From Candidatus Avimuribaculum pullicola (GTDB lineage: Bacteria; Bacteroidota; Bacteroidia; Bacteroidales; Muribaculaceae), in contig DVKC01000037.1 of the NCBI GenBank assembly GCA_018716295.1, positions 1 through 64,000 of the forward strand: a DNA stretch of 64,000 nt. The letters are read 5' to 3'. The notes beneath the pieces are model-generated. The model had not been told where the DNA came from and did no database searches. It saw only the letters and a program-made list of their open reading frames with translations. Of the stretch, positions 1 to 31,615 are shown piece after piece; position 1 is the first letter of the stretch, and each line of letters begins with the position of its first letter. The position numbers were made by a program, and so were the translations under genes.

Positions 1-151
1 AATGAACATTTGTTCGGCCCTCACCGCATATTGTTTCTTCGACAACAAGCCTGAAGCCCTGCCCGTCCATATCGAAAACACTCCCCAATTAGTCCTTTTT
101 TAACCCAAGCTTATCCCGAACTCACGTAATAATATAGACAATTCCATCACT

Positions 152-2020
152 GTGCGGAATGATGCGAAAGTGCAAATTCTCGTGAACGGCGACCAAGTGT
201 CCACAGGGTACGTCAATGCCCTTTCACTCGACCGCATCGACAAGGTAGAGGTGATATATGCGCCTTCGGCAAGGTTCTCAATGGCTGGTTATAAATATGT
301 AATCGACATAAAATTGAAGCCCGAATACCTCGGTCATGACATTTATGTGGGCAACTTCACCATGATTTCGGCTGGCAACAACAATGGCGACGATGTGGTG
401 GCCAACGAGCAGCCGCAAGCCATGTATATGTATTCGGGCGACAAGGTGGATTTTAATGTTGGCTACGCTTTCGGCGAAATCAACTGGCATTATCCGCTTT
501 CATACACCAAGTCTTACCAGGGCATCAATGAATTTTTCACTGATGAATACAACGAGAAAAATCCCAACGACCACAATAGCAACAGGACGCATGCTGTATT
601 TACAGGCCTCGACTGGCACATAAAATCAGGACATACGCTGTCGGTTCGTGCAATGTATGAAAATACCGATATTGGTCGTCGTTTGGAAAACAGCATTCAC
701 ACTATTGATGCCATGAGAACGGAACGGTTGCAGAGTGAGGCGACTGTCGATAGGCAGCAAGCCGACAATGTTACAGGGGCATTGATTTACCGTGGCAAAT
801 TCAAGGAGAAATGGGATGTGTATGCTTCGTTGGGATATAACCGCCTTAATGCCGATGTCACCAACAGCTATACGTTGCATGGTAGCTATGCAAGCGAATA
901 CTTGTACCGCAATACCCGCGACTACCTGAGTGGCAATTTCGACCTCACATATACTATTAATGATGCAATGTGGTTGAATGCTGGTTACATAGGCACATGG
1001 AATAGGTATGATTCGCATCTTGCTGGCAACGATATGCTTGTATCACGAAGCACCGACAGCCGCCACAATGCTTATGTGTATTACGATTATATGCCACGCC
1101 AAAATATGATGTTGCACATCGGCAGTGGCGTTGAATACATACACCGCACCGACTTGTCGGGCATTGATAAAAGTTATTGGAACTGGCTTCCGCAAGTGAC
1201 ATTTACCTACATGCCGACCGAAAAAGTGCAATTAATAGCCGACTACAAGACCCAAATGGGGTATCCATTGCAGTACCAGTTGTTAACATCGGGCTATGAC
1301 ATCGACAGCTTGATGCGCTATGAGGGTAATCCGTTGCTCGCCCCGTCGCGGACGCATTCGGTATCGTTGTCGGCGAGTGTGGACAATTCGTTTTATGCCG
1401 CATTGGAGTATAACACAACGCACGATTTCATGACCGAGTGGTACACCACAGTTAGCACGGGTAAATTTCTTTCCACTTTTGCTAATGCCCGCTACCATAG
1501 CATCAAGGCAATTGTCGGTTATGACTGGAAAATATCGAAATATGTGATTTGGAGCAATACCGTGCAAGTGAACTTCGACAAAATCAAGTTAGGGAACTTG
1601 GTGAACGATTATACCAATTTCAATATGGTGAGCCAACTGCGCTACTGGCTTGCCCCGTGGAAGATGCAATTCTCGGGAGAATATTGCCGAAACATGATGC
1701 GCGTGCCGCAGCTTCAAGGCTGGAGCGACTATGGTCAAGATATGTGGCAATTAATGGCGCAAAAAGCATTTTTAAACAATCGATTGTCGGTGTCGCTCAT
1801 TTATGTGCCACCGTTGCATCTGGGGGTGCGCACCCACCAACGCAGCTGTGTGGAAACGCCATTCTACCACACGGTTCAGAACCTTAACCTCAAAACCTAC
1901 GACAACATGCTGCTCGTGCGACTGCAATTCCGTTTCAATACAGGTAAATTCCGTCAAGGTGCTTTGCGCGACAATTTCAATGTCACCAAAGAACAAAAGA
2001 AAGACCGCGGCCTGATGTAA
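152..2020 (+). CDS. Outer-membrane beta-barrel protein, TonB-receptor-like, 5'-truncated
   Basis: The first ~60 residues match the late part of a TonB-type plug (VQILVNG, then IDKVEVIYAPSARF, then VIDIKLKPE). The remainder is a long barrel of alternating aromatic strands ending in LVRLQFRFNTGKF. Family members normally carry a signal peptide, a carboxypeptidase-regulatory-like domain and a full plug before this point. Here an in-frame TAA sits at about 101-103, and none of the three frames upstream reads as those domains. The only start in the track is a GTG at 152, placed inside a conserved stretch (NSIT-V-RNDAKV) whose coding resemblance runs back to about 104. I read it as a 5'-degraded gene or one broken near the window edge; a real alternative start cannot be excluded. 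The substrate is unknown. Confidence 0.6.
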   Translation: MRNDAKVQILVNGDQVSTGYVNALSLDRIDKVEVIYAPSARFSMAGYKYVIDIKLKPEYLGHDIYVGNFTMISAGNNNGDDVVANEQPQAMYMYSGDKVDFNVGYAFGEINWHYPLSYTKSYQGINEFFTDEYNEKNPNDHNSNRTHAVFTGLDWHIKSGHTLSVRAMYENTDIGRRLENSIHTIDAMRTERLQSEATVDRQQADNVTGALIYRGKFKEKWDVYASLGYNRLNADVTNSYTLHGSYASEYLYRNTRDYLSGNFDLTYTINDAMWLNAGYIGTWNRYDSHLAGNDMLVSRSTDSRHNAYVYYDYMPRQNMMLHIGSGVEYIHRTDLSGIDKSYWNWLPQVTFTYMPTEKVQLIADYKTQMGYPLQYQLLTSGYDIDSLMRYEGNPLLAPSRTHSVSLSASVDNSFYAALEYNTTHDFMTEWYTTVSTGKFLSTFANARYHSIKAIVGYDWKISKYVIWSNTVQVNFDKIKLGNLVNDYTNFNMVSQLRYWLAPWKMQFSGEYCRNMMRVPQLQGWSDYGQDMWQLMAQKAFLNNRLSVSLIYVPPLHLGVRTHQRSCVETPFYHTVQNLNLKTYDNMLLVRLQFRFNTGKFRQGALRDNFNVTKEQKKDRGLM

Positions 2021-2058
2021 ATAGCTTCATGCAAAATGAAGCAAAAAAACAGGCACTT

Positions 2059-2090
2059 TTTGCTATAAATATAAAAAATTGGTATCTTTG
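2059..2090 (+). promoter_or_regulatory. Bacteroidota sigma-ABfr type promoter for the PpiD-like gene
   Basis: TTTG at 2059-2062, a 20-bp spacer, then TATCTTTG at 2083-2090. This matches the Bacteroidota consensus (TTTG, about 20 bp, TAnnTTTG) exactly. It lies about 90 bp before the start codon, so an untranslated leader of about 80 nt is expected. Confidence 0.75.
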
Positions 2091-2178
2091 TGCGCTTTTT
2101 ATTGAGCATATTTTTGCCAGGCAGCACATTGCATGGCGCGTATTATAGTATAAAATAACAAAAAACATAATAACTTAA

Positions 2179-4236
2179 ATGGCAGCTTTAGAGAAAATTA
2201 GAAGCAAAGCAGTCCTGTTGGTAGTTTTCATCGGTGTGGCTCTTTTGGCCTTTATTTTGACCGACTTCCTTAACTCGGGCAGGGCTTTCTTTGGCGACGG
2301 TAACACCGTTGCCAAGGTGGGAGATACCAAAATCGATGCGCTGGACTTTCAGCGTCGTTATGAAACCATGAGCCAGCAAATGCAGTCGAGCCGCAGCCAA
2401 ATCGATGGCGCGATGCTGCAAAGCGAGGTGATGAACCAAATGATTCAAGAAATATTGCTCAATGATGAGCTTGATGCCTTGGATATCAATGTGAGCGATG
2501 TTGAAATCACTGAAGCTATCATTGGCAACAATGTTCGTCCCGAGGTGTTGCAATTTGTGCGCCAGAGTGGCATGGAATCGCCAGCTGAGATGCGCGACAT
2601 GATTTTCAACCCATCGAAATATGGTATCAGCGAAGCCGATGTAGCCGAAGCTCGTGCCGCTTGGTTGCAACTTGAGGAAAATGTCGAGAATAATATGAAG
2701 CTCGAAAAATTGCAAACACTTGTGATGGGCGCAATTCGTGCCAACGACCTCGACAAGAAAGAAATGGCGGCTGAAAATGCTGTTACAAACACTATACAAT
2801 TTGCTCGTGTCAACTATTCGACATTGAAGAATGACGATTATGAAGTGAGCGATAGCGAGATACAAGCCGAGTATAACAAGCGAAAGGAACTTTACAAGCT
2901 CCCCGAAGAGTTGCGAGTTGCACACATCATTGCTGTGGATATCACTCCATCTACTGCCGATTTGAATCAGGCTCAGTCGTTCATCAATGGCGTTTATACC
3001 AAACTCGTTTCGACCGAGGGCGTTGACGAGGTGCGCAATAATGCCGAACTTACAATCAATGAAAATACAGTGCGCTTGACCGACTTGCGTCAGAATGATG
3101 TACGCGACTTCGTTGCAAAGGCTGCTATCGGAGATGTCACTTCGCCAAAGTTCCAGTCGAATACCTACACAATGACCAAGTTGATTGGCAAAGAAATGGG
3201 CCTTGACTCGGTTAACGTGAGCATGATGAGCATTGCTGGCCCGAAGAATTTGCAAGACTCGGTTCTCAATCTGCTCAATGCTGGCACAGCATACGCCGAA
3301 ATCCAGAAGATACAAGGCACTCAAGGGCAAGAAAACTTTTGGCAGACTCTTATCGGTGCTCCCGACTCGACTATTGCCAAGTTCCGTGCTGCCGGTAAAG
3401 ACTACTTTGTACTTAACCAGTCGGAACAAGGTGCTATTTATGTTAAGATAAACGAGCTTAAGAAGCCGAAACAACTTTACGACGTAGCCCAAATTTCCTA
3501 TACTGTATATCCAAGCACAAAGACTACGCAAGACTTGCGCGATAGCTTGCAATCGTTTATCAACACCAACAACACTGCCGAGCTGTTTGAAAAGAATGCT
3601 GCCCGCGCTGGTTACAATGCCATGTCGGCTCGCGTGATTTCTTCATCGCCGCAAATCAACGGCATCGAAAGTTCGCGCGAGGTTGTAAGATGGCTCTTTG
3701 AGGTTGAGCCAGGAACTGTTTCGCCAATCTTTGACAAGCAGAACAAAGACAAGATGATGGTTGCTTCGCTCGACTATGTGTATAAAGAAGGCTATTTGCC
3801 AGCCAATGCGCCAGAGGTGAAGAATGAACTCACTGCAATCGTGCGCAATAGCAAGAAAGGCGATGCACTGATGGAAAAATTCCAGGGCAAGGCAAGCGAC
3901 ATAGCAGGATATGCCAAGGCAATGGATGTGACTGTTGACACAACGACAGTGACTTTCGGACAGAACTATATCGCAAAAATCGGTTCGCGCGAGGCTGATT
4001 TGACAGCAAGTGTTGCAGCAGCCGATAGCGGCAAAGTCATGGGCCCGCTTAAGGCCAATACATCGCTTGTGGTATATGAAGTAATAGGCCAGGACAAGGC
4101 AAAGCGTGAGCTTACCGACCTTGAAACCGAGCAGCAGTTTGCCCGCACTCGTGGCAACCAAATGGTGATGCAGCAAGCCATCAACATATTGCGCAACGCC
4201 ACCGATGTTGAAAACATGATGATAAGATTCTATTAA
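2179..4236 (+). CDS. PpiD/SurA-like peptidyl-prolyl isomerase family protein
   Basis: This is a 685-aa protein with a single N-terminal membrane anchor (residues ~10-30, VLLVVFIGVALLAFILTDFL). A SurA_N-like chaperone region follows (VAKVGDTKIDALDFQRRYE). A large periplasmic part begins around residue 245 with RVAHIIAVD, which resembles the start of a parvulin domain. Bacteroidota homologues are annotated as peptidylprolyl isomerases and are thought to help outer-membrane proteins fold. The parvulin core is poorly preserved to my eye, so a mainly chaperone role is possible. It has its own promoter upstream and a terminator directly downstream, so it is probably monocistronic. Confidence 0.8.
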   Translation: MAALEKIRSKAVLLVVFIGVALLAFILTDFLNSGRAFFGDGNTVAKVGDTKIDALDFQRRYETMSQQMQSSRSQIDGAMLQSEVMNQMIQEILLNDELDALDINVSDVEITEAIIGNNVRPEVLQFVRQSGMESPAEMRDMIFNPSKYGISEADVAEARAAWLQLEENVENNMKLEKLQTLVMGAIRANDLDKKEMAAENAVTNTIQFARVNYSTLKNDDYEVSDSEIQAEYNKRKELYKLPEELRVAHIIAVDITPSTADLNQAQSFINGVYTKLVSTEGVDEVRNNAELTINENTVRLTDLRQNDVRDFVAKAAIGDVTSPKFQSNTYTMTKLIGKEMGLDSVNVSMMSIAGPKNLQDSVLNLLNAGTAYAEIQKIQGTQGQENFWQTLIGAPDSTIAKFRAAGKDYFVLNQSEQGAIYVKINELKKPKQLYDVAQISYTVYPSTKTTQDLRDSLQSFINTNNTAELFEKNAARAGYNAMSARVISSSPQINGIESSREVVRWLFEVEPGTVSPIFDKQNKDKMMVASLDYVYKEGYLPANAPEVKNELTAIVRNSKKGDALMEKFQGKASDIAGYAKAMDVTVDTTTVTFGQNYIAKIGSREADLTASVAAADSGKVMGPLKANTSLVVYEVIGQDKAKRELTDLETEQQFARTRGNQMVMQQAINILRNATDVENMMIRFY

Positions 4237-4257
4237 AATAACTAAACAACCTGTATA

Positions 4258-4295
4258 AACAAGGGCAGCGGCATTAGAGTGGCACTGCCCTTGTT
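4258..4295 (+). terminator. Stem-loop terminator after the PpiD-like gene
   Basis: AACAAGGGCAG and CTGCCCTTGTT form a perfect 11-bp stem, followed by a T-rich stretch. The right arm runs into the TTTG box of the sufE promoter. Confidence 0.75.
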
Positions 4296-4325
4296 TGCAT
4301 TTTACAGCAAAAATTGTTAATTTTG
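4294..4325 (+). promoter_or_regulatory. Promoter for sufE
   Basis: TTTG at 4294-4297, a 20-bp spacer, and TAATTTTG at 4318-4325. The ATG at 4344 follows by 18 bp, so the leader is very short. The -33 box overlaps the end of the preceding terminator stem. Confidence 0.7.
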
Positions 4326-4343
4326 AGCAATTTATTAAACGTC

Positions 4344-4781
4344 ATGAAAACAATCAACGAAATACAAGACGAAATCATCGAAGAGTTTGAAGGGCTTGCC
4401 GAATGGATGGATCGTTATAGCTACATAATCGACCTTGGCAACTCCCTTGAGCCGCTTGAAGAAAAGTACAAAACTCCAGAATACCTTATCGAGGGCTGCC
4501 AGAGCCGTGTGTGGATAACCGCCAGCGAAGACAGCGACGGTTTGATACACTTCCGTGCCGACAGTGATGCCATCATCGTGAAAGGTATTATATCACTGTT
4601 AATCTCGGTATTGTCGGGGCATACGGCACAAGAAATCTTGGACAGCGACCTTTATTTTATCAAAGAAGTCGGGTTGCAAGAGCATTTATCGCCCACGCGC
4701 AGCAACGGTCTGGTGGCAATGGTGAAGCAGATGCGTATGTATGCAATGGCGTTCCAAGCCAAGGATGGTGCAAATAAATAA
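4344..4781 (+). CDS. sufE: SufE-family cysteine desulfurase activator / sulfur acceptor
   Basis: This 145-aa protein takes persulfide sulfur from the SufS desulfurase and passes it on for Fe-S cluster assembly. The acceptor cysteine lies in EGCQSRVW, the hallmark motif of SufE, and the length is normal. I chose the ATG at 4344 (MKTINEIQDEI) over the TTG at 4314. The TTG lies upstream of the promoter's -7 box, so it could not be translated from that transcript. The gene is separate from the sufBCDS operon at 12.9-17.8 kb. The transporter gene starts 38 bp downstream without a visible promoter of its own, so the two are probably co-transcribed. Confidence 0.93.
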   Translation: MKTINEIQDEIIEEFEGLAEWMDRYSYIIDLGNSLEPLEEKYKTPEYLIEGCQSRVWITASEDSDGLIHFRADSDAIIVKGIISLLISVLSGHTAQEILDSDLYFIKEVGLQEHLSPTRSNGLVAMVKQMRMYAMAFQAKDGANK

Positions 4782-4819
4782 AAAATAATATATAAACACA
4801 CACAACGCATTCATTAATT

Positions 4820-6379
4820 ATGTTCAATCAACCCAAAGGATTAATTCCAGCCGCCCTTTCCAACATGGGCGAGCGCTTTGGCTACTACATCATGAACGCC
4901 GTTTTGTCGCTGTTCTTGTGTTCGAAGTTTGGCCTTAGCGAAGAGATGGGCGGACTCATCTATTCATTTTTCTATGCCGGCATATACGTGCTCAGCTTGG
5001 TGGGCGGGTTTATTGCCGACCGTACACAAAATTACAAAGGGACTATCGCCAACGGTCTTGTGGTGATGTCGCTTGGATATGTTATCCTGTCTATTCCAAT
5101 TTTGTCAACCGACCAAAACATCAGCTGGCTGTTGCCGCTCACATGTTTTGCATTGTTCCTGATAGCATTTGGCAATGGCTTGTTCAAAGGTAACTTGCAG
5201 GCTATCGTAGGACAGATTTACGACAACTATGAAGCCGAGGAGGCAAAGAAAGGTGCCGAGGCACTGGCTGCCGCGCAAAAGAAACGCGACTCGGGTTTCC
5301 AGATTTTTTATGTATTTATTAATATCGGCGGGCTTGTGGCACCGTTTGTAGCACCGTTGTTGCGCAGCTGGTGGCTCAATGTCCACAATTTTGTTTATAA
5401 TGCCGACCTTCCGGCATTGTGCCACAAGTATCTTGATGGCGCAAGCACCATGGCTGCTACCGATCTCGCCAACCTTACCGATCTTGCCTCGAAGGCATCG
5501 GGAACGGCTGTTACCGACATGGCTGCATTCTGTACACAATATTTGGACGTATTCAACACAGGTATCCACTATTCGTTCATAGCATCGGTTGCTGCAATGC
5601 TCATATCGCTTGCCATCTTCCTTGCTACGAAGAAGATTTTCCCGACACCCGGAAAGAAGGCCGAGGCCGCCGTATCGGAGTATTCGACCGAAGAAAAGCT
5701 GGCTATGGCCAAGGAAATCAAGCAACGCATGTATGCACTGTTTGCAGTGCTTGGCATCGTGATTTTCTTCTGGTTCTCGTTCCACCAGAATGGTGTATCA
5801 CTTTCTTATTTTGCCCGCGATTTTGTTGATACATCGCTTATTCCGCCAGAGATATGGCAAGCTGTCAATCCATTTTTTGTGATTGTCCTCACGCCGATTA
5901 TAATGCTTTTCTTCGGCGCATTGTCGCGCAGAGGCAAGGAGATATCCACGCCGCGCAAGATTGCCTATGGTATGGCGATAGCCGGAATAGCCTATTTGTT
6001 CCTTGCCATATACTCGGCATTTATGGGTTATCCGTCGGCCAATGAGTTTACTGGTTTGTCGGAAGCCGAGAAAGTAAAGGCAGGATGGTGGGTGCTGATT
6101 GTCACTTATTTCTTCCTCACTGTGGCCGAATTGTTCATATCCCCGCTCGGGTTGTCGTTTGTTTCAAAAGTCGCTCCTAAGAATATGCTTGGATTGTGCC
6201 AGGGATTGTGGCTTGGGGCAACAGCCGTCGGCAACTTGTTGCTGTGGATTGGCCCGTTGATGTATAACGCATGGCCTATATGGCAATGCTGGAGTGTATT
6301 CTTTGTAGTGTGCATCATCTCTATGGGCGTGATGCTTGGCATGGTCAAGTGGCTCGAACGCATCGTGGCAGGGAAATAA
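4820..6379 (+). CDS. POT/PTR2-family MFS transporter
   Basis: A 519-aa membrane protein with about 12-14 hydrophobic helices. The N-terminus has the POT signature region SNMGERFGYY, and FYVFINIGG matches the FYxxINxG motif, placing it in the proton-dependent oligopeptide transporter family. The usual ExxER motif reads NxxER: the first glutamate, implicated in proton coupling, is replaced by Asn. A hydrophilic loop (~residues 130-160, Ala/Lys-rich) and an extra segment of about 80 residues (~190-260) separate the helical halves. Di- or tripeptide uptake is the family expectation; the altered motif makes the substrate and coupling uncertain. Confidence 0.82.
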   Translation: MFNQPKGLIPAALSNMGERFGYYIMNAVLSLFLCSKFGLSEEMGGLIYSFFYAGIYVLSLVGGFIADRTQNYKGTIANGLVVMSLGYVILSIPILSTDQNISWLLPLTCFALFLIAFGNGLFKGNLQAIVGQIYDNYEAEEAKKGAEALAAAQKKRDSGFQIFYVFINIGGLVAPFVAPLLRSWWLNVHNFVYNADLPALCHKYLDGASTMAATDLANLTDLASKASGTAVTDMAAFCTQYLDVFNTGIHYSFIASVAAMLISLAIFLATKKIFPTPGKKAEAAVSEYSTEEKLAMAKEIKQRMYALFAVLGIVIFFWFSFHQNGVSLSYFARDFVDTSLIPPEIWQAVNPFFVIVLTPIIMLFFGALSRRGKEISTPRKIAYGMAIAGIAYLFLAIYSAFMGYPSANEFTGLSEAEKVKAGWWVLIVTYFFLTVAELFISPLGLSFVSKVAPKNMLGLCQGLWLGATAVGNLLLWIGPLMYNAWPIWQCWSVFFVVCIISMGVMLGMVKWLERIVAGK

Positions 6380-6445: not shown

Positions 6446-7627
6446 ATGTCAACCAACATTATTAGCGATGGCCGCATACAGGCGGTCGATGCGCTGCGCG
6501 GATTTGCCGTGATGGGCATCATACTGCTACACAATATAGAGCATTTCAACTTCTATTCGTTCCCCGAAACCACAGGGGCATTGCAGGCTCTCGACAGCAC
6601 TATCTGGGATTTCTTGTTTTTCACATTCTCGGGCAAGGCATACGCCATATTTGCGTTGTTATTTGGCTTCACATTCTACTTGCAAAGCCGCAGCAGCGAA
6701 CGCCGTGGAGAGGATTTCAAGAACCGTTATATGTGGCGTCTGGTGCTGCTGCTTTTGTTCGGATTTATAAATGCATCGTTTTTCCCCGGTGAAATATTGG
6801 TGCTGTATGCCATTTTGGGCTTTGTGCTTGTGCCAGTAAGGCATGTGAGCAACAAGGCATTGTTCATAACCCTGGCCATACTCATGCTCCAGCCAGTGGA
6901 ATGGGGCAAGGTGGTGTATGCCGCACTCAATCCTGCGGCCAATCCCGAGCAGACGATTTATTCGCTCGTTGATGTATATCCCCAACTTGGCGGCAGCGAT
7001 TTCATCGAGATGGTGAAAGTGAACTTTGTCACTGGGCAGCTTGCCAGCCTCAATTGGGCATGGTGCTATGGCCGGGTGTTCCAGACGTGCGCACTGTTTA
7101 TGCTCGGGCTGTTGCTTGGGCGCAAAGGGCTGTTTTCGTCGGCCGACGATGAGGCTTTGGCACGTTCGCGCCGTTTCTGGACGCGAGTGGTGTGCCTTGC
7201 CCTGCCATCGGCATTGCTGATGTATTTTGCCAAACAATTCATATACACGCAGATTCCCAATCCATTCATGCTCGCATCGGTCGAAACTGTCCTAAACTCG
7301 TGGTACAATCTTGCATTTATGCTTGCCATGACGGGGGCGTTCTTGTTGCTCTTTTGGACTTTCAATGGTGCCGTGCTGCGCATTCTTGCCCCATACGGGC
7401 GCATGAGCCTCACCGACTATATCACGCAATCGATTATTGGCAGTTTCCTGTATTATGGCTACGGACTGGCATTGCACACGGTGTGCAGCCATACCTATAG
7501 TTTCCTTGTCGGCGTGGCTATGCTGGCGGCACAAATGATATTTGCGCACTGGTGGTTCAGGCACTTCCGCCGAGGCCCGCTTGAAACCATTTGGCACCGC
7601 CTCACGTGGATTGGAGCGAAACGTTAA
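6446..7627 (+). CDS. DUF418-family integral membrane protein
   Basis: A 393-aa multi-helix membrane protein. The start RIQAVDALRGFAVMGIILLHNIEHFN and the C-terminal block YGRMSLTDYITQSIIGSFLYYG, ending in WWFRHFRRGPLETIWH, are the recognisable signature of DUF418 proteins (YeiB-like). The biochemical function of the family is not known; resemblance to acyltransferase-3-like membrane proteins has been noted for the N-terminal segment. A terminator-like stem precedes it and I see no clear promoter, so it may depend on read-through from the transporter gene. Confidence 0.85.
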   Translation: MSTNIISDGRIQAVDALRGFAVMGIILLHNIEHFNFYSFPETTGALQALDSTIWDFLFFTFSGKAYAIFALLFGFTFYLQSRSSERRGEDFKNRYMWRLVLLLLFGFINASFFPGEILVLYAILGFVLVPVRHVSNKALFITLAILMLQPVEWGKVVYAALNPAANPEQTIYSLVDVYPQLGGSDFIEMVKVNFVTGQLASLNWAWCYGRVFQTCALFMLGLLLGRKGLFSSADDEALARSRRFWTRVVCLALPSALLMYFAKQFIYTQIPNPFMLASVETVLNSWYNLAFMLAMTGAFLLLFWTFNGAVLRILAPYGRMSLTDYITQSIIGSFLYYGYGLALHTVCSHTYSFLVGVAMLAAQMIFAHWWFRHFRRGPLETIWHRLTWIGAKR

Positions 7628-12358: not shown

Positions 12359-12850
12359 ATGAACTTTGAAGCATTAGTAAAACATATCAGCACGATACAA
12401 AGCACGTTGCAGGCGCAAGCAGCACATGCTGTAAATCTTGCCCTGACAGCCCGCAACTGGCTCATGGGCTGCTACATTGTGGAGTTTGAACAGAACGGGG
12501 AAGACCGTGCCACATACGGTGAACAATTGTTAAAGAAGCTGGAACAGCGGCTGAACGTCAAGGGACTGAACGAGCGCAGGTTTCGTGAGTTCCGACGGTT
12601 GTATCTCGTTTATCCACAACTGAAAGAGCCTATCGCATTGTATCTGACATAGCAAATTCAGTACGCACTGTCCTCCGAATTCACAGACCCAATTCGGCGG
12701 TTGTTGACCGCCAAATCTGATAATGAAATTCGGCGGTTGTCAACCGCCGAATCCACTCAACACATTCAATCGGCTCAAAACAAATGGATTACCCCACCCG
12801 AAAAATTGTTTAGCCGCCTATCCTCCACCCATTTGAATATCCCTAGTTAA
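12359..12850 (+). pseudogene. YhcG/DUF1016 nuclease-family gene, N-terminal remnant with internal stop
   Basis: The first 97 codons (SLT-like block NLALTARNWLMGCYIVEFEQNGEDRATYG, then FREFRRLYLVYPQ) are the DUF1016 N-terminal domain. A TAG at 12650-12652 ends that frame. The same frame then stays open and still resembles the family: a short repeat (IRRLLTAK, IRRLSTAE) and QNKWITPPEKLFSRLSSTHL, which normally leads into the linker of these proteins. It stops at about 12848. The C-terminal PD-(D/E)XK nuclease domain is absent. YhcG-type proteins usually travel with mobile elements and restriction loci; the integrase remnant upstream fits that. It is dead unless the N-terminal fragment acts alone. 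Confidence 0.82.
12691..12752 (+). repeat. Short direct repeat with 12-bp palindrome inside the YhcG remnant
   Basis: ATTCGGCGGTTG occurs at 12692-12703 and again at 12728-12739. The second copy forms a palindrome with CAACCGCCGAAT (12741-12752) across one base. In frame it encodes IRRLLTAK/IRRLSTAE, so it looks like a coding repeat rather than an attachment site. Confidence 0.6.
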
Positions 12851-12919
12851 TAAGCAACATAGAAATAGTATGGTTGATACGATTTTGTTCATTCCTTGAT
12901 GTTTGTGCAGGTTTTTTTA

Positions 12920-14140
12920 TTACTTGCGGAACATGGCTGTAGCACGTTTTACTGCTGCGATGAAGCGTTCGACCTCTTCACGGGTATTATAGACGGCAAA
13001 TGAAGCGCGTACAGTTCCCTCTATGCCCAGCGAGGTCATTAAAGGTTGTGCGCAGTGGTGTCCTGTGCGCACGGCGATGCCCATCTTGTCCAAAAGCATG
13101 CCCATATCGTAGTGGTGTATCCCATCAACGAGGAACGATATCACACCTTCCTTGCCAGCCGATGTGCCATAAATTTTCATGCCAGGGATTTCCATCAATC
13201 CGGCTGTGGCAGCGATAAGCAATTCACGTTCATGGGCGGCAATGTTGTCGATACCTATGCGGTTGATATAGTCAATGGCTGCCGACATTGCAGCTACGCC
13301 GACATAGTCGGGTGTACCTGCTTCAAACTTGAAAGGCAGGTCGGCAAAGGTGGTTTTCTCGAATGTCACATGGCCTATCATCTCACCGCCACCTTGGTAT
13401 GGAGGCAGTGTTTCGAGCCAGCGGCGTTTGCCATATAGCACGCCTACTCCGACAGGGCCATACATTTTGTGGGCCGAGAATGCGTAGAAATCGGCATCAA
13501 GGTCGGTCACGTCGATGCGGCGGTGTGCTACGGCTTGCGCCCCGTCGATGAGTACAGGCACACCATGGCGGTGCGCTATTTCTATCATCTGCTTGATGGG
13601 ATTGACCGTCCCGAGCACGTTTGACACGTGTGCGAGTGCCACAAAGCGAGTGTTGTCGGTAAACAAGTCTTCGTAGGCATCGAGCATTATATCACCATGG
13701 GCATCAATAGGAACCACTTTCAACACCACGCGGCAATAACGTTGCAGCAGTTGCCAAGGCACGATGTTGGAATGGTGTTCGGCAACGGTCACGATTATTT
13801 CATCGCCATTGCACAGCGAGTTGCCGAATGTTGATGCTACAAGGTTGATGCCTTCGGTTGTGCCGCGAGTGAAGATTATTTCTTCGGTTGAACCTGCATT
13901 TATGAATTCTTTCACTTTGAGGCGAGCATCTTCTACACGGTCGGTAGCTTCTTGCGAGAGGGTGTGTACGCCACGGTGTACGTTGGCCTTGTGTTCATAA
14001 TACATTCGGCAGATGCTATCGACCACGCAGCGCGGTGTTTGCGAGGTGGCTGCGTTGTCGAGGTACACAAGCGGGTTTCCCTCTACCGTGCGGTGCAGGA
14101 TTGGAAACTCTTCCCTTATTTTATCAATATCGAGTGACAT
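12920..14140 (-). CDS. sufS: Cysteine desulfurase SufS
   Basis: A 406-aa PLP enzyme that removes sulfur from cysteine and leaves a persulfide for SufE. The PLP lysine lies in FSAHKMYGPVGVGVLYG, and the active-site cysteine in VRTGHHCAQPLM near residue 365, as in group II desulfurases. The track shows a longer frame from 14281; I chose MSLDIDKIREEFP at 14140, which follows the sufD stop by 13 bp and gives the family length. It is the last gene of the cvpA-sufBCDS operon. Confidence 0.95.
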   Translation of the reverse strand: MSLDIDKIREEFPILHRTVEGNPLVYLDNAATSQTPRCVVDSICRMYYEHKANVHRGVHTLSQEATDRVEDARLKVKEFINAGSTEEIIFTRGTTEGINLVASTFGNSLCNGDEIIVTVAEHHSNIVPWQLLQRYCRVVLKVVPIDAHGDIMLDAYEDLFTDNTRFVALAHVSNVLGTVNPIKQMIEIAHRHGVPVLIDGAQAVAHRRIDVTDLDADFYAFSAHKMYGPVGVGVLYGKRRWLETLPPYQGGGEMIGHVTFEKTTFADLPFKFEAGTPDYVGVAAMSAAIDYINRIGIDNIAAHERELLIAATAGLMEIPGMKIYGTSAGKEGVISFLVDGIHHYDMGMLLDKMGIAVRTGHHCAQPLMTSLGIEGTVRASFAVYNTREEVERFIAAVKRATAMFRK

Positions 14141-18361: not shown

Positions 18362-18424
18362 CAACTTTTTCACGACTTTTCATATAGCCCCACGGGTGGG
18401 CAAAATGCCAGGTGTAAAAAAGTT

Positions 18425-18457
18425 TTCCCCAAGCAGCAAAGAGGCTCGCTTGGGGAA
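18425..18457 (-). terminator. Stem-loop terminator after the YwqG gene
   Basis: TTCCCCAAGC and GCTTGGGGAA form a perfect 10-bp stem with a 13-nt loop. On the minus strand it is followed by AACTTTTTTAC. It separates the YwqG cassette from the suf operon. Confidence 0.75.
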
Positions 18458-18498: not shown

Positions 18499-19149
18499 TT
18501 ATGTCGATAGCACAATGGCTCGAACATTGTCAAAACGGTGGTTGCGCAAGTCGTCGGGTGAAATCAAGAAGTCAAGTACACCCCAGTCCAAGAAGTTGAG
18601 GTGGAAGTCATCGCCTTCGTCAGAGTCGATTTGCAACAATATCTGCCAGTCTTCGTATGGCGGATCCCATGTTTCCCATTCTCGGTGGTTGGGTGGGGCG
18701 AGCAGTGCATGGTCGCTGCCATATTGTTTGTTGCTGTGGGCAAAGTTGATTTTCAGTTCCATGGGGTTGACTTGTTCGTCGTCATCGTCAATCAAGACTA
18801 TTTCTTGGAATGTGTCGTCAACTTCGGGAAAGAACAGCACTTTCACATCGTCGGTGTCGCTTATATAGCCGCTTACGCCAGGGTCGTTGTCGAAATTGCC
18901 CATGTAATAATCTATTTTTGCGAAAAACGACAGTAGCCCCTTATGTGGCAATATGCCCTCGGTGTCGAGTGCGGCAATGTCGGCAAGGTTGATTTGGCAC
19001 ACGAACTCGTAGTGGTATTCTTCGCCATCTTCATCGGTATAGGTAGGGTAGTCTGTTCCATTGGGCAGGTCGGGATTGCCCCAGAATCGAGAACTGCCTG
19101 TCGGCAATTTGTCGGCCGGTTTTGATAAATTTAGATATATTGGTTTCAT
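18499..19149 (-). CDS. YwqG/DUF1963-family protein
   Basis: A 216-aa acidic protein without signal peptide. The order of blocks fits YwqG: SRFWGNPDLPNGTDYP near the start, a CQINLADI segment, LPHKGLLSFFAKID, a DPGVSGYI segment, then HALLAPPNHREWETWDPP, LLQIDSDEGDDFHLNFLDWGVLDFLI at the core and a short C-terminal strand. In Bacillus ywqG lies beside a secreted-toxin locus, and related folds include immunity proteins, but no activity is established. Its start overlaps the stop of the upstream gene (TAATG), so it is co-translated with it. It is the last of three cassette genes. Confidence 0.75.
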   Translation of the reverse strand: MKPIYLNLSKPADKLPTGSSRFWGNPDLPNGTDYPTYTDEDGEEYHYEFVCQINLADIAALDTEGILPHKGLLSFFAKIDYYMGNFDNDPGVSGYISDTDDVKVLFFPEVDDTFQEIVLIDDDDEQVNPMELKINFAHSNKQYGSDHALLAPPNHREWETWDPPYEDWQILLQIDSDEGDDFHLNFLDWGVLDFLISPDDLRNHRFDNVRAIVLST

Positions 19150-19832
19150 TAGTCAAACATTACACGTGGGTTCATAATTGCCGGGCTGCGCCATGCAAAC
19201 CCGAATTCTTTTTCAAGCACTTCGGAACGTTCATACCAGAAAGCGTGGCAAAATCCCATTCCGCGCGGATGGTCGGCGAGCCGTTCATATACGATTTTAT
19301 CGGCCTTGTCGATGATTTCTTCCCATCGGGCAGTCCATTCCACTGGGTCGTGCTTGATGTGGCCAGTGGCGGATATTTCGTCCAATTTGCCATTGTCGGC
19401 GAGGGCGATATTGTGGTTTAACTCGTCGATTTCCATTGCTATGTCGTCCGGGTCGTCGTGTTTGTCACATTTATCCCCGTTAAGGTTCTCTAATCGTTGG
19501 GCTACCGACAGGTAAAATTTTAGTAGCTCGACTTTCAGCCGTGGATGTTCATACAGTGTTTTTGCCATTCGCGAGGCGGCCTGGCATAGCAAGTCGAGCA
19601 TGCTGTCATGCTTTTCAAGTGGCCGTGCATAATGCAGGAATTCACGTGTAAGGTCGGCTATTTCCCATTGCCAGTTTTGCTCCCGTATGGCAAGCTCGGC
19701 AGCCAGTACATCGCCGCATGCAACTTCCCAATAGGCGTTGATTTCATCGCTGTCGCCTGTCAACTTGGGAATTTTTGCGGCGCGTGTTCTTGCCGCTTCA
19801 AGTTCTTTTCTGATGTCGATTTCTTGATCCAT
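19149..19832 (-). CDS. Unrecognised helical acidic protein (cassette gene 2)
   Basis: A 227-aa protein, mostly predicted helix, with no membrane segment. The C-terminal block HPRGMGFCHAFWYERSEVLEKEFGFAWRSPAIMNPRVMFD looks like a conserved family signature, which I recall from uncharacterised Bacteroidales proteins. The middle contains an Asp-rich patch (DKHDDPDD). I do not recognise a function. It overlaps the YwqG gene by TAATG and follows the first cassette gene by 20 bp, so the three products are probably made together. Confidence 0.65.
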   Translation of the reverse strand: MDQEIDIRKELEAARTRAAKIPKLTGDSDEINAYWEVACGDVLAAELAIREQNWQWEIADLTREFLHYARPLEKHDSMLDLLCQAASRMAKTLYEHPRLKVELLKFYLSVAQRLENLNGDKCDKHDDPDDIAMEIDELNHNIALADNGKLDEISATGHIKHDPVEWTARWEEIIDKADKIVYERLADHPRGMGFCHAFWYERSEVLEKEFGFAWRSPAIMNPRVMFD

Positions 19833-19852
19833 ATATGAGAAGTATTAAGATT

Positions 19853-20446
19853 TCATGCGTATGCGTCATATCGGCCATCATCACCGCGGTAATAGTCGGC
19901 GAGCCAGTCTTGAGCATCTTTGCAGCCCAATGATGCGGCGTGTGCCATGTACCGGCTGATTATTTCGAGCGACTCGGGCAGTTGTTCGGCAACCTCGTCG
20001 GCCACGGCTTGTGCCGCTTTTGGGTCGTCGTTCAATGCGTTTTCCCAGTCTTGGTCGTCAACGTAGAAATATTTTGTAGTTTCTTCAAAGTCGTCATATT
20101 CTTCAACTTTCAAGGTATAGGAACGCAAACTGAGTGATAATATCGCTGGCTTCTCGGGGTCACCGATGGCAATGTCGATGCCGTCGGGGTCTTCAATGTC
20201 GAGTGTGAAGATGTTCATGTCGTCGCTATCGGGGTCGTAAGTTACATTTACCCTGACATAGGTTTCTTCGGCAGCCAGTATCACGACCTTGGGCCAAAAG
20301 TTGTCACGGTTGTAATTCCGCCGCAAGCTCAATAGCTCGTCGCCGGCAGAAAGTTCCTCGCGTTGATAATTGGTGGTAACAACGCCGCCACCGTAAACGT
20401 GCCATCCCATGCTGAGCATGTCCCATATACGTGTAGTCTTAGCCAT
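19853..20446 (-). CDS. Unrecognised acidic protein with Sel1-like tail (cassette gene 1)
   Basis: A 197-aa strongly acidic protein. The first ~120 residues look like beta-strands (VVILAAEETYVRVNVTYDP; ILSLSLRSYTLKVEEYDD). Residues ~125-150 are a helical segment rich in Ala and Glu. The end, YMAHAASLGCKDAQDWLADYYRGDDG, resembles a Sel1/TPR-type repeat. There is no signal peptide. It is the promoter-proximal gene of the three-gene cassette. The function is unknown. Confidence 0.65.
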   Translation of the reverse strand: MAKTTRIWDMLSMGWHVYGGGVVTTNYQREELSAGDELLSLRRNYNRDNFWPKVVILAAEETYVRVNVTYDPDSDDMNIFTLDIEDPDGIDIAIGDPEKPAILSLSLRSYTLKVEEYDDFEETTKYFYVDDQDWENALNDDPKAAQAVADEVAEQLPESLEIISRYMAHAASLGCKDAQDWLADYYRGDDGRYDAYA

Positions 20447-20538
20447 GATTCTTTATTTGTTGTTAATAGAGGATTTTAGAATTGGTTTTAAGGCAATATT
20501 GCAATTTAATGTCTTGGTTTCACGACTCGATTATGTCA

Positions 20539-20569
20539 CAAATATAGCGAAATGATTTGCAATCTCAAA
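20539..20569 (-). promoter_or_regulatory. Promoter of the three-gene YwqG cassette
   Basis: On the minus strand: TTTG (20566-20569), a 19-bp spacer, and TATATTTG (20539-20546). The first cassette ATG is about 93 bp downstream. Confidence 0.7.
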
Positions 20570-29261: not shown

Positions 29262-30773
29262 TTATATGCAGTCAAACAAACGCATGGCTTGGTGTGTAGA
29301 TGTCGGTGTGTTCCTGTCCCAATCATTTTCATCGAACACGCCTGTCGATACTATGGCTTGCGCCAGCATCTTCACAACTGGAACGGCAACGCTGTTTCCA
29401 ATCAGTTTCATCCACCGAGAACGTGCGGTAGGTAGGATGAAGTCGGGCGGGAAGCCTTGTATGCGGCATGCTTCCGACTTGGTAATCTGCCTATACTTGT
29501 GCTTGTAGTATATTTCTTTCATGAATGTTGCTCGCCATTCTTCAGTTGTTGTTGCCTTGATTGGAACGGTTGTAATATAATCGTTTGTATCACTGGCAAC
29601 TAATGTAGGGTATATTTTTGATGTCGGCAGAAAAATGCGGTTCACTCCGTTCAGCCCAGTGCTTATTTTTGTGTTTTTGAAGTCATATCTTATTTCGGCG
29701 CATTTGATGATGCCGTTTTGTTCAAGTCTGTGCAGCGATTGCGAGATCTTTATTTTCCTTTTCTTTATCTCTTTGTTGATTTTAAGCTCGTCAACGATTA
29801 TAGTCCCACATCTGGCAAGTGACAGCAAGAAGCGATCGTCTTCTGGTAAGCAGCTTGTGTCGCCTGTGATTACGTATTTGTAAGGGCACGTTTTCAGTAT
29901 GCCCATTGCTACAAGATCTTCAATTTCACAGAGTTGTATCGATGGGTCGATCTGTCGGAAGTGGTTCAATGCCATGGCGTTACCGTCAAGTATTCCATAA
30001 ATGCTTTTCCTGCGATTTTGCAGAAGCATATAGCATATATATTTCTGCCGGTCGGTGGTCGGGATTATATCCCATGAGTGTATGGTGGTGTGGCCGTTGC
30101 GCAAGTCGTTGAAAAGGAAATAATCATTGAATCCTTGTTCGTTGCACGACAAGCTCCACCGCGATTTTGTGTTGCTGTTGTTCCTGTCGCAAAGGTCATA
30201 ATCATCGAGAATATCACCAAGCTGTACGCTTCCTGGTGCTGGCGATGGGATTACGAGCCGGTCTAAATATTTCTTTTCCTTGAATCCGACAATGTATATA
30301 CGAACTCTTGTTTGAGGTACACCATAGTCGTAAGCGTTGAGTACGAATGGTTGTGCATAATATCCAGCTTGGGCAATCCTGTCCAGAATGTAATCGAGGG
30401 CCTTTTTGTTGCGAGGGTCGGTCAATCCTTTGACGTTCTCAAATATAAAAGTCTTTGGTCTTGATTCGTTGAGCAAGAACAAAGTATCGTTCCACAGCTG
30501 TCCACGGTCATCGTCAAATCCTAAGTTCTTCCCTGCGATTGACCAGCTTTGGCATGGTACGCCGGCAGTCATGAAATCATGTTTGGGCAATGAAGTTAAT
30601 TTGGTTATATCCCCAAAGTTGTGTTCTTCCGTAATATTGTAATTGGTGCAGTAAGCCTTAATGGCATCGGGTGCAATTTCACTGAAACCGCAGCACGTTC
30701 CGCCGATGCTTTCCAATGCTAAATGAAAGCCGCCAATTCCCGCAAAAAGGTCGATGTACGTAAATTTTGCCAT
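29262..30773 (-). CDS. C5-cytosine DNA methyltransferase of a type II restriction-modification system
   Basis: A 503-aa DNA methyltransferase. The C5-cytosine motifs appear in order: SAM site DLFAGIGGFHLALES, catalytic cysteine GVPCQSWSIAG, FENVKGL, the QTRVR block YGVPQTRVRIYIVGF, then the late IQGFPPDF and GNSVAVPVV. Between the middle and late motifs is an unusually long region (~residues 200-400) with a winged-helix-like stretch (SLARCGTIIVDELKINKEIKKRKIKISQSLHRLEQNGIIKCAE), likely the target-recognition part. It overlaps the nuclease gene by TAATG. This is probably a horizontally acquired pair between housekeeping genes. Confidence 0.93.
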   Translation of the reverse strand: MAKFTYIDLFAGIGGFHLALESIGGTCCGFSEIAPDAIKAYCTNYNITEEHNFGDITKLTSLPKHDFMTAGVPCQSWSIAGKNLGFDDDRGQLWNDTLFLLNESRPKTFIFENVKGLTDPRNKKALDYILDRIAQAGYYAQPFVLNAYDYGVPQTRVRIYIVGFKEKKYLDRLVIPSPAPGSVQLGDILDDYDLCDRNNSNTKSRWSLSCNEQGFNDYFLFNDLRNGHTTIHSWDIIPTTDRQKYICYMLLQNRRKSIYGILDGNAMALNHFRQIDPSIQLCEIEDLVAMGILKTCPYKYVITGDTSCLPEDDRFLLSLARCGTIIVDELKINKEIKKRKIKISQSLHRLEQNGIIKCAEIRYDFKNTKISTGLNGVNRIFLPTSKIYPTLVASDTNDYITTVPIKATTTEEWRATFMKEIYYKHKYRQITKSEACRIQGFPPDFILPTARSRWMKLIGNSVAVPVVKMLAQAIVSTGVFDENDWDRNTPTSTHQAMRLFDCI

Positions 30774-31615
30774 TATCTCAATGTGTTGTTTTCAAATCCC
30801 ATAGGCGGCTCAATGCCAAGGAATTCCCGATATATGCGTTCTTTGTATGAAATACCAAGTTTGTTTATTTCATCTATGAAACTTTGGTATGCGCCAGGCC
30901 CTCCGACTAAATCCCAAAATTCATCTCCTATAAGTACAACTTCATCATTTACCATATCAAACCATCTTTGAGGGAATGACCAAGCATAGTCGGTTTTATG
31001 TTTGCCATAAGGGTTGTAAACTAAAGCGTAATAAGCGTTGGTGACGATGTGTTCGTTCATCGCGAGAAGTTTAAACATTTTTTCTTTGCTTACTTTCGTT
31101 TGGTCGCTATTCGGCAGAGGTGCTTTTAGTTCAAAGGCGTATGTTGCATTTGTGCGTTTACTGTTGATTAGAATATCGCACGTAATGCTTATTGGAACTG
31201 GGTTGCCTCCACCAGCTTTTATGTAAGTTAGTTCTTTTTCCCAATTTGGACGTATTTTCTTTTTTCCTCTTACACTGTGTTCCAATTTGTTTAATACTTC
31301 TTGTATCCTTCTAAGGCTTTCATCTCCGATGGTGCCTTCCACTGAAGCTCCTTGTTTACAGTGGCCATGGTATGCTATTGCGACTTGCGTTGCTAACTTT
31401 TCCCAAGCCGAGCCAAATGGAGTTACAAATCTTCTTTCAAAATGTGAGCCTTTGAATATTTCGTCGGGGACTAATGCTGCATATAATGGTTTGTTGGCGT
31501 GATGCTTTTCGACAATGAAAGGGTCAGAAATAAGGACTTTATCCATTACTTTGTCCATCATGGATGTTATTACGTTAAGGATTGCAGTTCTTATATCGTC
31601 ATGTTTATTGTCCAT
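30773..31615 (-). CDS. Type II restriction endonuclease, TdeIII-like
   Basis: A 280-aa protein encoded directly before the methyltransferase. The PD-(D/E)XK pattern is visible as CDILI (Asp ~147) and YAFELKAP (Glu ~162, Lys ~164). PLPNSDQTKVSKEKM follows, wording I associate with the TdeIII family. Members I recall cut GGNCC-type sites, so that specificity is an inference only. The nuclease comes first in the operon and the methyltransferase is translationally coupled to its stop, an order that makes dosage control interesting. Confidence 0.8.
   Translation of the reverse strand: MDNKHDDIRTAILNVITSMMDKVMDKVLISDPFIVEKHHANKPLYAALVPDEIFKGSHFERRFVTPFGSAWEKLATQVAIAYHGHCKQGASVEGTIGDESLRRIQEVLNKLEHSVRGKKKIRPNWEKELTYIKAGGGNPVPISITCDILINSKRTNATYAFELKAPLPNSDQTKVSKEKMFKLLAMNEHIVTNAYYALVYNPYGKHKTDYAWSFPQRWFDMVNDEVVLIGDEFWDLVGGPGAYQSFIDEINKLGISYKERIYREFLGIEPPMGFENNTLR

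Follow-up and report, generated by a model that had tools for sequence, protein, structure and literature searches.

A co-inherited gene trio of Bacteroidales combines a short DUF1963/TYPP protein with two orphan families and has homologues in kinase/AAA+ operons

On the minus strand of the 64-kb window, by which we mean the whole stretch of DNA analysed here, three open reading frames lie between lpxA (21569-20775) on one side and cvpA and suf genes on the other (Table 1). An earlier note, made from the letters alone, had placed a tightly packed three-gene cassette here, and its coordinates prove exact: genes A and B are spaced by 20 bp, and genes B and C overlap in the pentamer TAATG. The complete promoter that it proposed is also present, as a perfect match to TTTG-N19-TATATTTG, which we take to be the Bacteroidota-type promoter consensus; the window holds seven such sites when both strands are counted, whereas shuffled sequence yields about 0.4 on each strand. 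The claim of a strong terminator holds in part. A hairpin 3' of gene C (CCCCAAGC...GCTTGGGG, -21.4 kcal/mol when folded) is followed by AAAACTTTTTT, but it went unlisted in a consensus terminator scan because the T run begins several bases past the stem, a spacing that leaves an intrinsic terminator plausible rather than proven.

Table 1. Coordinates of the trio and its associated elements in the window
Feature	Position	Strand	Description
Gene A	19853..20446	-	197 aa, pI 4.1; orthologues in genus
Gene B	19149..19832	-	227 aa, all-helical (predicted), pI 4.9
Gene C	18499..19149	-	216 aa, short DUF1963/TYPP (YwqG); domain 18517-19092
A tail domain	19856..20113	-	~85 aa, helical (predicted), Sel1/TPR-like
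B signature domain	19152..19379	-	DPVE...GMGFC..W...GI.WRSP..MNP..FD
Promoter TTTG-N19-TATATTTG	20539..20569	-	exact match to presumed Bacteroidota sigma consensus
Probable intrinsic terminator	18416..18455	-	hairpin 18455-18427, then AAAACTTTTTT

As the earlier note had it, the three products are acidic (C, like A, has a pI of 4.1) and none begins with a hydrophobic stretch when judged by eye; acidity in itself, which had been read as a mark of immunity proteins, says little. Comparison with orthologues from the genus gives dN of 0.11-0.30 and dS of 1-2.6 where computable, dS being saturated for B against two of its orthologues. This low dN against dS confirms that A, B and C are real genes under purifying selection and not chance reading frames.

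Gene C is the one member of the trio with a known domain. Its product matches DUF1963 (PF09234) at E 2.9e-25 and 90.4 bits, against a Pfam cut-off of 23, and, by profile, PDB 1PV5, Bacillus subtilis YwqG, at E 7e-14 with both repeats aligned. Across our alignment of C (A4), Q52, Q173 and P26/P29 are invariant and G24 nearly so; by the criteria of PMC4275035, C thus keeps both TYPP glutamines and a GxP-like motif. By sequence, C is a member of the YwqG branch of DUF1963/TYPP, and the name YwqG-like given to it earlier was apt. Bacteroidales DUF1963 proteins fall, when split by eye, into a long form, as a rule of about 276-317 aa, and a short form of about 200-225 aa, one short-form protein being fused to give 314 aa. 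Compared with the long YwqG of the order, C is some 80 aa shorter and sits in a short acidic subfamily that travels with A and B, whereas the long form was never seen beside A or B among the DUF1963 proteins of 295 Bacteroidales genomes. For the TYPP superfamily a chaperone-like role has been proposed, in which a groove or pocket receives peptides that are extended or poorly folded (PMC4275035), and the eukaryotic members Tsr4/PDCD2 are reported to chaperone ribosomal protein uS5 (PMC6648895, PMC13127195); by analogy, C may share with these relatives the binding of peptide or protein.

Protein B, by contrast with C, was left unassigned by Pfam, NCBIfam, PADLOC and PHROGs, and in the searches with A and B the matches to DUF1737 and DUF7503 were below cut-off and set aside as chance. 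Its predicted model is all-helical (pLDDT 84.8, pTM 0.83). Foldseek returned no significant relative among PDB and viral models, the weak, non-significant fold matches being mostly designed repeat, TPR and 14-3-3 proteins, and a sequence search of the PDB gave chance matches only. A domain of 75 residues at its C-terminus carries an almost invariant signature, in line with the strong C-terminal conservation that the earlier note reported; the domain is in no library searched, and in other genomes it is joined to several different N-terminal parts, in proteins of 229 to 664 aa. We found no match to B in phages and no confirmed one in viral contigs, and a plasmid search gave one match at the first threshold, so that an origin in phages, plasmids or viral contigs was rejected. 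A weak Escherichia coli plasmid match (H7) was dropped, as it falls in unannotated DNA between cbpA and agp. A Parabacteroides plasmid record carries a 100-aa version of the B domain among small genes without assigned function. Separately, locus L060 (genome G647, contig C195; features at 120-5641 and 12598-13149) encodes a distantly related B-domain protein that contains a hydrophobic stretch; about 7 kb away on the contig are genes that by eye resemble those for an SNF2-type helicase, a DUF1016-type nuclease and a DUF1156-type methylase.

Protein A is likewise absent from Pfam, NCBIfam, PADLOC and PHROGs, its PDB sequence search gave chance matches only, and profile comparison shows A and B to be unrelated to one another. 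Its tail, which the earlier note had called Sel1-like, is modelled over residues 131-187 as four short helices (pLDDT ~60-85, the remainder of A being poorly modelled), and this helical pattern is kept in relatives, where in other genera the tail also occurs as a stand-alone protein of 85-88 aa. Pfam Sel1, however, matches neither A nor the stand-alone tails, for which the best Pfam match is TPR_20 at E 0.05, below cut-off; the label is only loosely right, and we use it to denote a loose resemblance in the predicted helices. No family library searched names either A or B, and as far as the papers we searched show, this combination of one known domain and two orphan families has not been reported.

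The three genes are inherited together. B is present in six of nine genomes of the genus, always within an A-B-C trio of constant order, and is missing from the other three at the threshold used. Most of these carriers have the trio next to lpxA. G001 has it at another site, and in this genome, as in the three without B, other genes follow lpxA. Of 295 Bacteroidales genomes, 11 have B, 7 have A and 20 have a DUF1963 protein. Six of the 295 have A together with B (p 4e-9) and nine have B together with short C (p 9e-13), while B and long YwqG coincide in one, which is not significant; both positive associations stay significant when counted by genus, and since the tests treat related genomes as independent, adjacency is the stronger evidence. 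Outside the genus, B stands beside C (once one gene apart) in 13 loci from at least seven other genera, and a sample of the family gave seven B matches from other genera, six of them with C as neighbour, in one of these six across an intervening Sel1-like gene. B adjoins C in Bacteroidales contig L003 and in G029, G143, G219, G240, G245 and G301; in G109, G217 and G294 the neighbour of C is A or an A tail; and B is found alone in L004-L008, G114, G159 and G217. B-C is the commonest pair. The genes are thus conserved, co-inherited and contiguous, which supports the self-contained unit of the earlier note, and its proviso that the genes might never occur together in other genomes is answered by these loci.

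Such a unit might do lineage-specific housekeeping that has nothing to do with conflict or signalling, for example by helping to assemble a single cytosolic complex or ribosomal protein. Its own promoter and probable terminator, its low dN/dS and its fixed position beside lpxA agree with this, as does the ribosomal-protein chaperoning ascribed to eukaryotic TYPP proteins. Yet the three genus genomes without B, at the threshold used, and the lack of the whole set in most Bacteroidales mark the trio as dispensable, and housekeeping leaves unexplained why its homologues recur in signalling operons; we consider it decidedly improbable.

Those operons provide the strongest context found for the trio in other genomes. 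In three genera, homologues of A, B and C belong to an operon encoding a Hanks-type kinase, a CbxX-type AAA+ ATPase, a zinc-ribbon/FHA protein and a PP2C phosphatase, with domains assigned by Pfam for G245 and part of G029 and by sequence likeness for the rest. The order in G029 is TPR - B-like protein - A tail - zinc ribbon - kinase - AAA+ - AAA - FHA - PP2C - C - B; in G245 it is zinc ribbon - kinase - AAA+ - FHA - PP2C - A - B; and in G743, the seventh family match, it is B - zinc ribbon - kinase - AAA+ - FHA - PP2C, then several other genes, then C - Sel1-like. Related arrangements include TPR - A tail - zinc-ribbon AAA - C - B (G143 and G240) and B - C - DUF4062 protein - AAA+ (G219), and in G217 a TIR-Sel1 protein lies ~2.8 kb from C-A. 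The window differs, with no kinase and CbxX-type AAA+ operon beside the trio or anywhere else within it, and AAA_lid_6, the CbxX-type lid, was found in none of the nine genus genomes (our own genome being 83% complete), so that in this genus the trio is found by itself. Further AAA_lid_6 proteins about 1,100 aa long (G018, G114, G130, G147, G268, G298 and a second copy in G029) were set aside, being outside this type of operon and having no A, B or C near.

The genus has also undergone an expansion of Hanks-type kinases, with 13 Pkinase matches in our genome, 14 in G004, 11 in G006 and 7 in G008 against 0-3 in its other members. In our genome (G000) they lie on contigs C4, C6, C16, C20, C21, C26, C27, C42, C43 and C47, and one inspected copy, on C43, is fused to an FGE-sulfatase (SUMF1-like) domain. 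A link between this expansion and the trio was rejected, as G001 has the trio and no Pkinase match and G006 has its 11 matches and no B.

One reading of the operons is that the kinase/AAA+/FHA/PP2C set, or elsewhere the DUF4062 or TIR-Sel1 protein, is the sensor or effector of an intracellular conflict or anti-phage system, of which the trio would be a regulator or leftover part. The composition of the G029, G245 and G743 operons, the neighbours in G219 and G217 and the patchy presence of B (11 of 295 Bacteroidales genomes and 11 of 94 from the family) favour this reading. There is a thematic likeness, too, to the NTP-dependent conflict systems of Kaur et al. 2020 (PMC7159879) in the AAA+/STAND NTPases, kinase, PP2C, FHA and Sel1; those systems, in contrast, are mostly vWA-MoxR or GTPase based and come from multicellular bacteria, and we saw no vWA gene in the A/B/C operons of relatives. 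Weighing further against this reading, PADLOC, with the threshold relaxed to E 1, has no match for A, B or C and gives generic kinase and AAA matches for the operon, the phage and viral-contig searches with B came back without a confirmed match, and no such effector adjoins the trio in the window's genus. We judge it unlikely.

The earlier note had leaned towards toxin immunity, with acidic proteins that bind and block competitors' toxins in the manner of orphan immunity genes. Like the products of orphan or acquired immunity arrays, the trio proteins are small, acidic and cytosolic, and a few distant loci could be read the same way. On a Janthinobacterium plasmid, a 119-aa protein ending in the B signature sits in an array of Tdi1-type, CDI and TsiV-type immunity genes with PAAR and VRR-NUC genes; an RHS-repeat protein and an Imm33-like gene precede a Priestia YwqG; and the neighbours of a Subdoligranulum YwqG are, by eye, ankyrin- and SUKH-like. 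These are distant single search finds and not a counted enrichment. The case for immunity draws on these distant relatives only; in closer ones the strongest context is the kinase/AAA+/FHA/PP2C operon, beside single cases next to a DUF4062 protein and near a TIR-Sel1 protein. Nor does an immunity or defence role as originally put find backing at home: the trio has neither toxin nor immunity genes as neighbours in the window and no toxin gene beside it in the genomes of the genus, where its other neighbours are also non-toxin genes, and PADLOC is silent. The trio also keeps to fixed locations: in most carriers of the genus it is next to lpxA, and another genus has it next to galM/pckA-type genes. 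A fast turnover is usual for immunity genes, whereas the trio evolves slowly and preserves its motifs. The available part of a polymorphic-toxin survey (PMC3482391) does not mention DUF1963/YwqG. Toxin immunity is, in our estimate, a rather doubtful account of the trio. On the same Janthinobacterium plasmid (NZ_CP049829.1, locus L112), two identical copies of a 91-aa gene, at 3442-3717 and 6666-6941, stand in the immunity-type array.

The explanation that we tentatively prefer, at a little below an even chance, is that A, B and C form a cytosolic adaptor or chaperone module that binds and holds a client protein and that phospho-signalling AAA+ machines can use. By analogy with its superfamily, C would offer, through a TYPP fold with two invariant glutamines, a groove or pocket in which an extended or poorly folded peptide could lie; the helical body of B could serve as scaffold and its invariant C-terminal signature as a docking site for C or the client, with the Sel1/TPR-like tail of A providing a further surface for contacts. 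In relatives, the FHA protein might sense phosphorylation and PP2C reverse it, and this switch would gate transfer of the client to the AAA+ ATPase, while in the window's genus, which lacks the CbxX-type AAA+, the trio alone may act as a holdase-type adaptor. Counting against such an adaptor are the lack of a significant fold relative for B, the poor modelling of A and the presence of B alone in several genomes. Because none of the nine genus genomes has the AAA+ partner by its AAA_lid_6 and one trio genome has no Pkinase match, coupling to these machines is not required and may be incidental. A more committed version, in which the trio is the recurring core of a Bacteroidales system whose kinase/FHA/PP2C switch and CbxX-type AAA+ act on clients recognised by B-C (and A), the window's trio being a free-standing version for defence or toxin neutralisation, seems to us improbable.

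These results give three orphan protein families a common, testable context, in which a B-C pair recurs across many Bacteroidales genera and has been recruited to kinase/FHA/PP2C/AAA+ operons. If the adaptor explanation is true, the short DUF1963/TYPP branch, whose eukaryotic relatives are ribosomal-protein chaperones, would gain a bacterial function, and the trio would represent the part that recognises clients in an as yet uncharacterised, phospho-regulated AAA+ machine of gut bacteria.

Three further features, two of them in the window, were noted. In the window, a DNA cytosine methyltransferase-like gene (503 aa) abuts a gene for a 280-aa putative partner restriction enzyme, the two (29262-31615, about 9 kb from the trio) being likely, from sequence likeness, to form a restriction-modification pair. 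A 97-aa reading frame at 12359-12652 matches only the N-terminal part of DUF1016, the YhcG nuclease family, at E 2.6e-12 and is probably a truncated remnant. Downstream of the trio in G002 (locus L043, contig C20, 902-7461), several tandem related genes for proteins of about 215-250 aa with signal-peptide-like starts appear to form an expanding secreted family.
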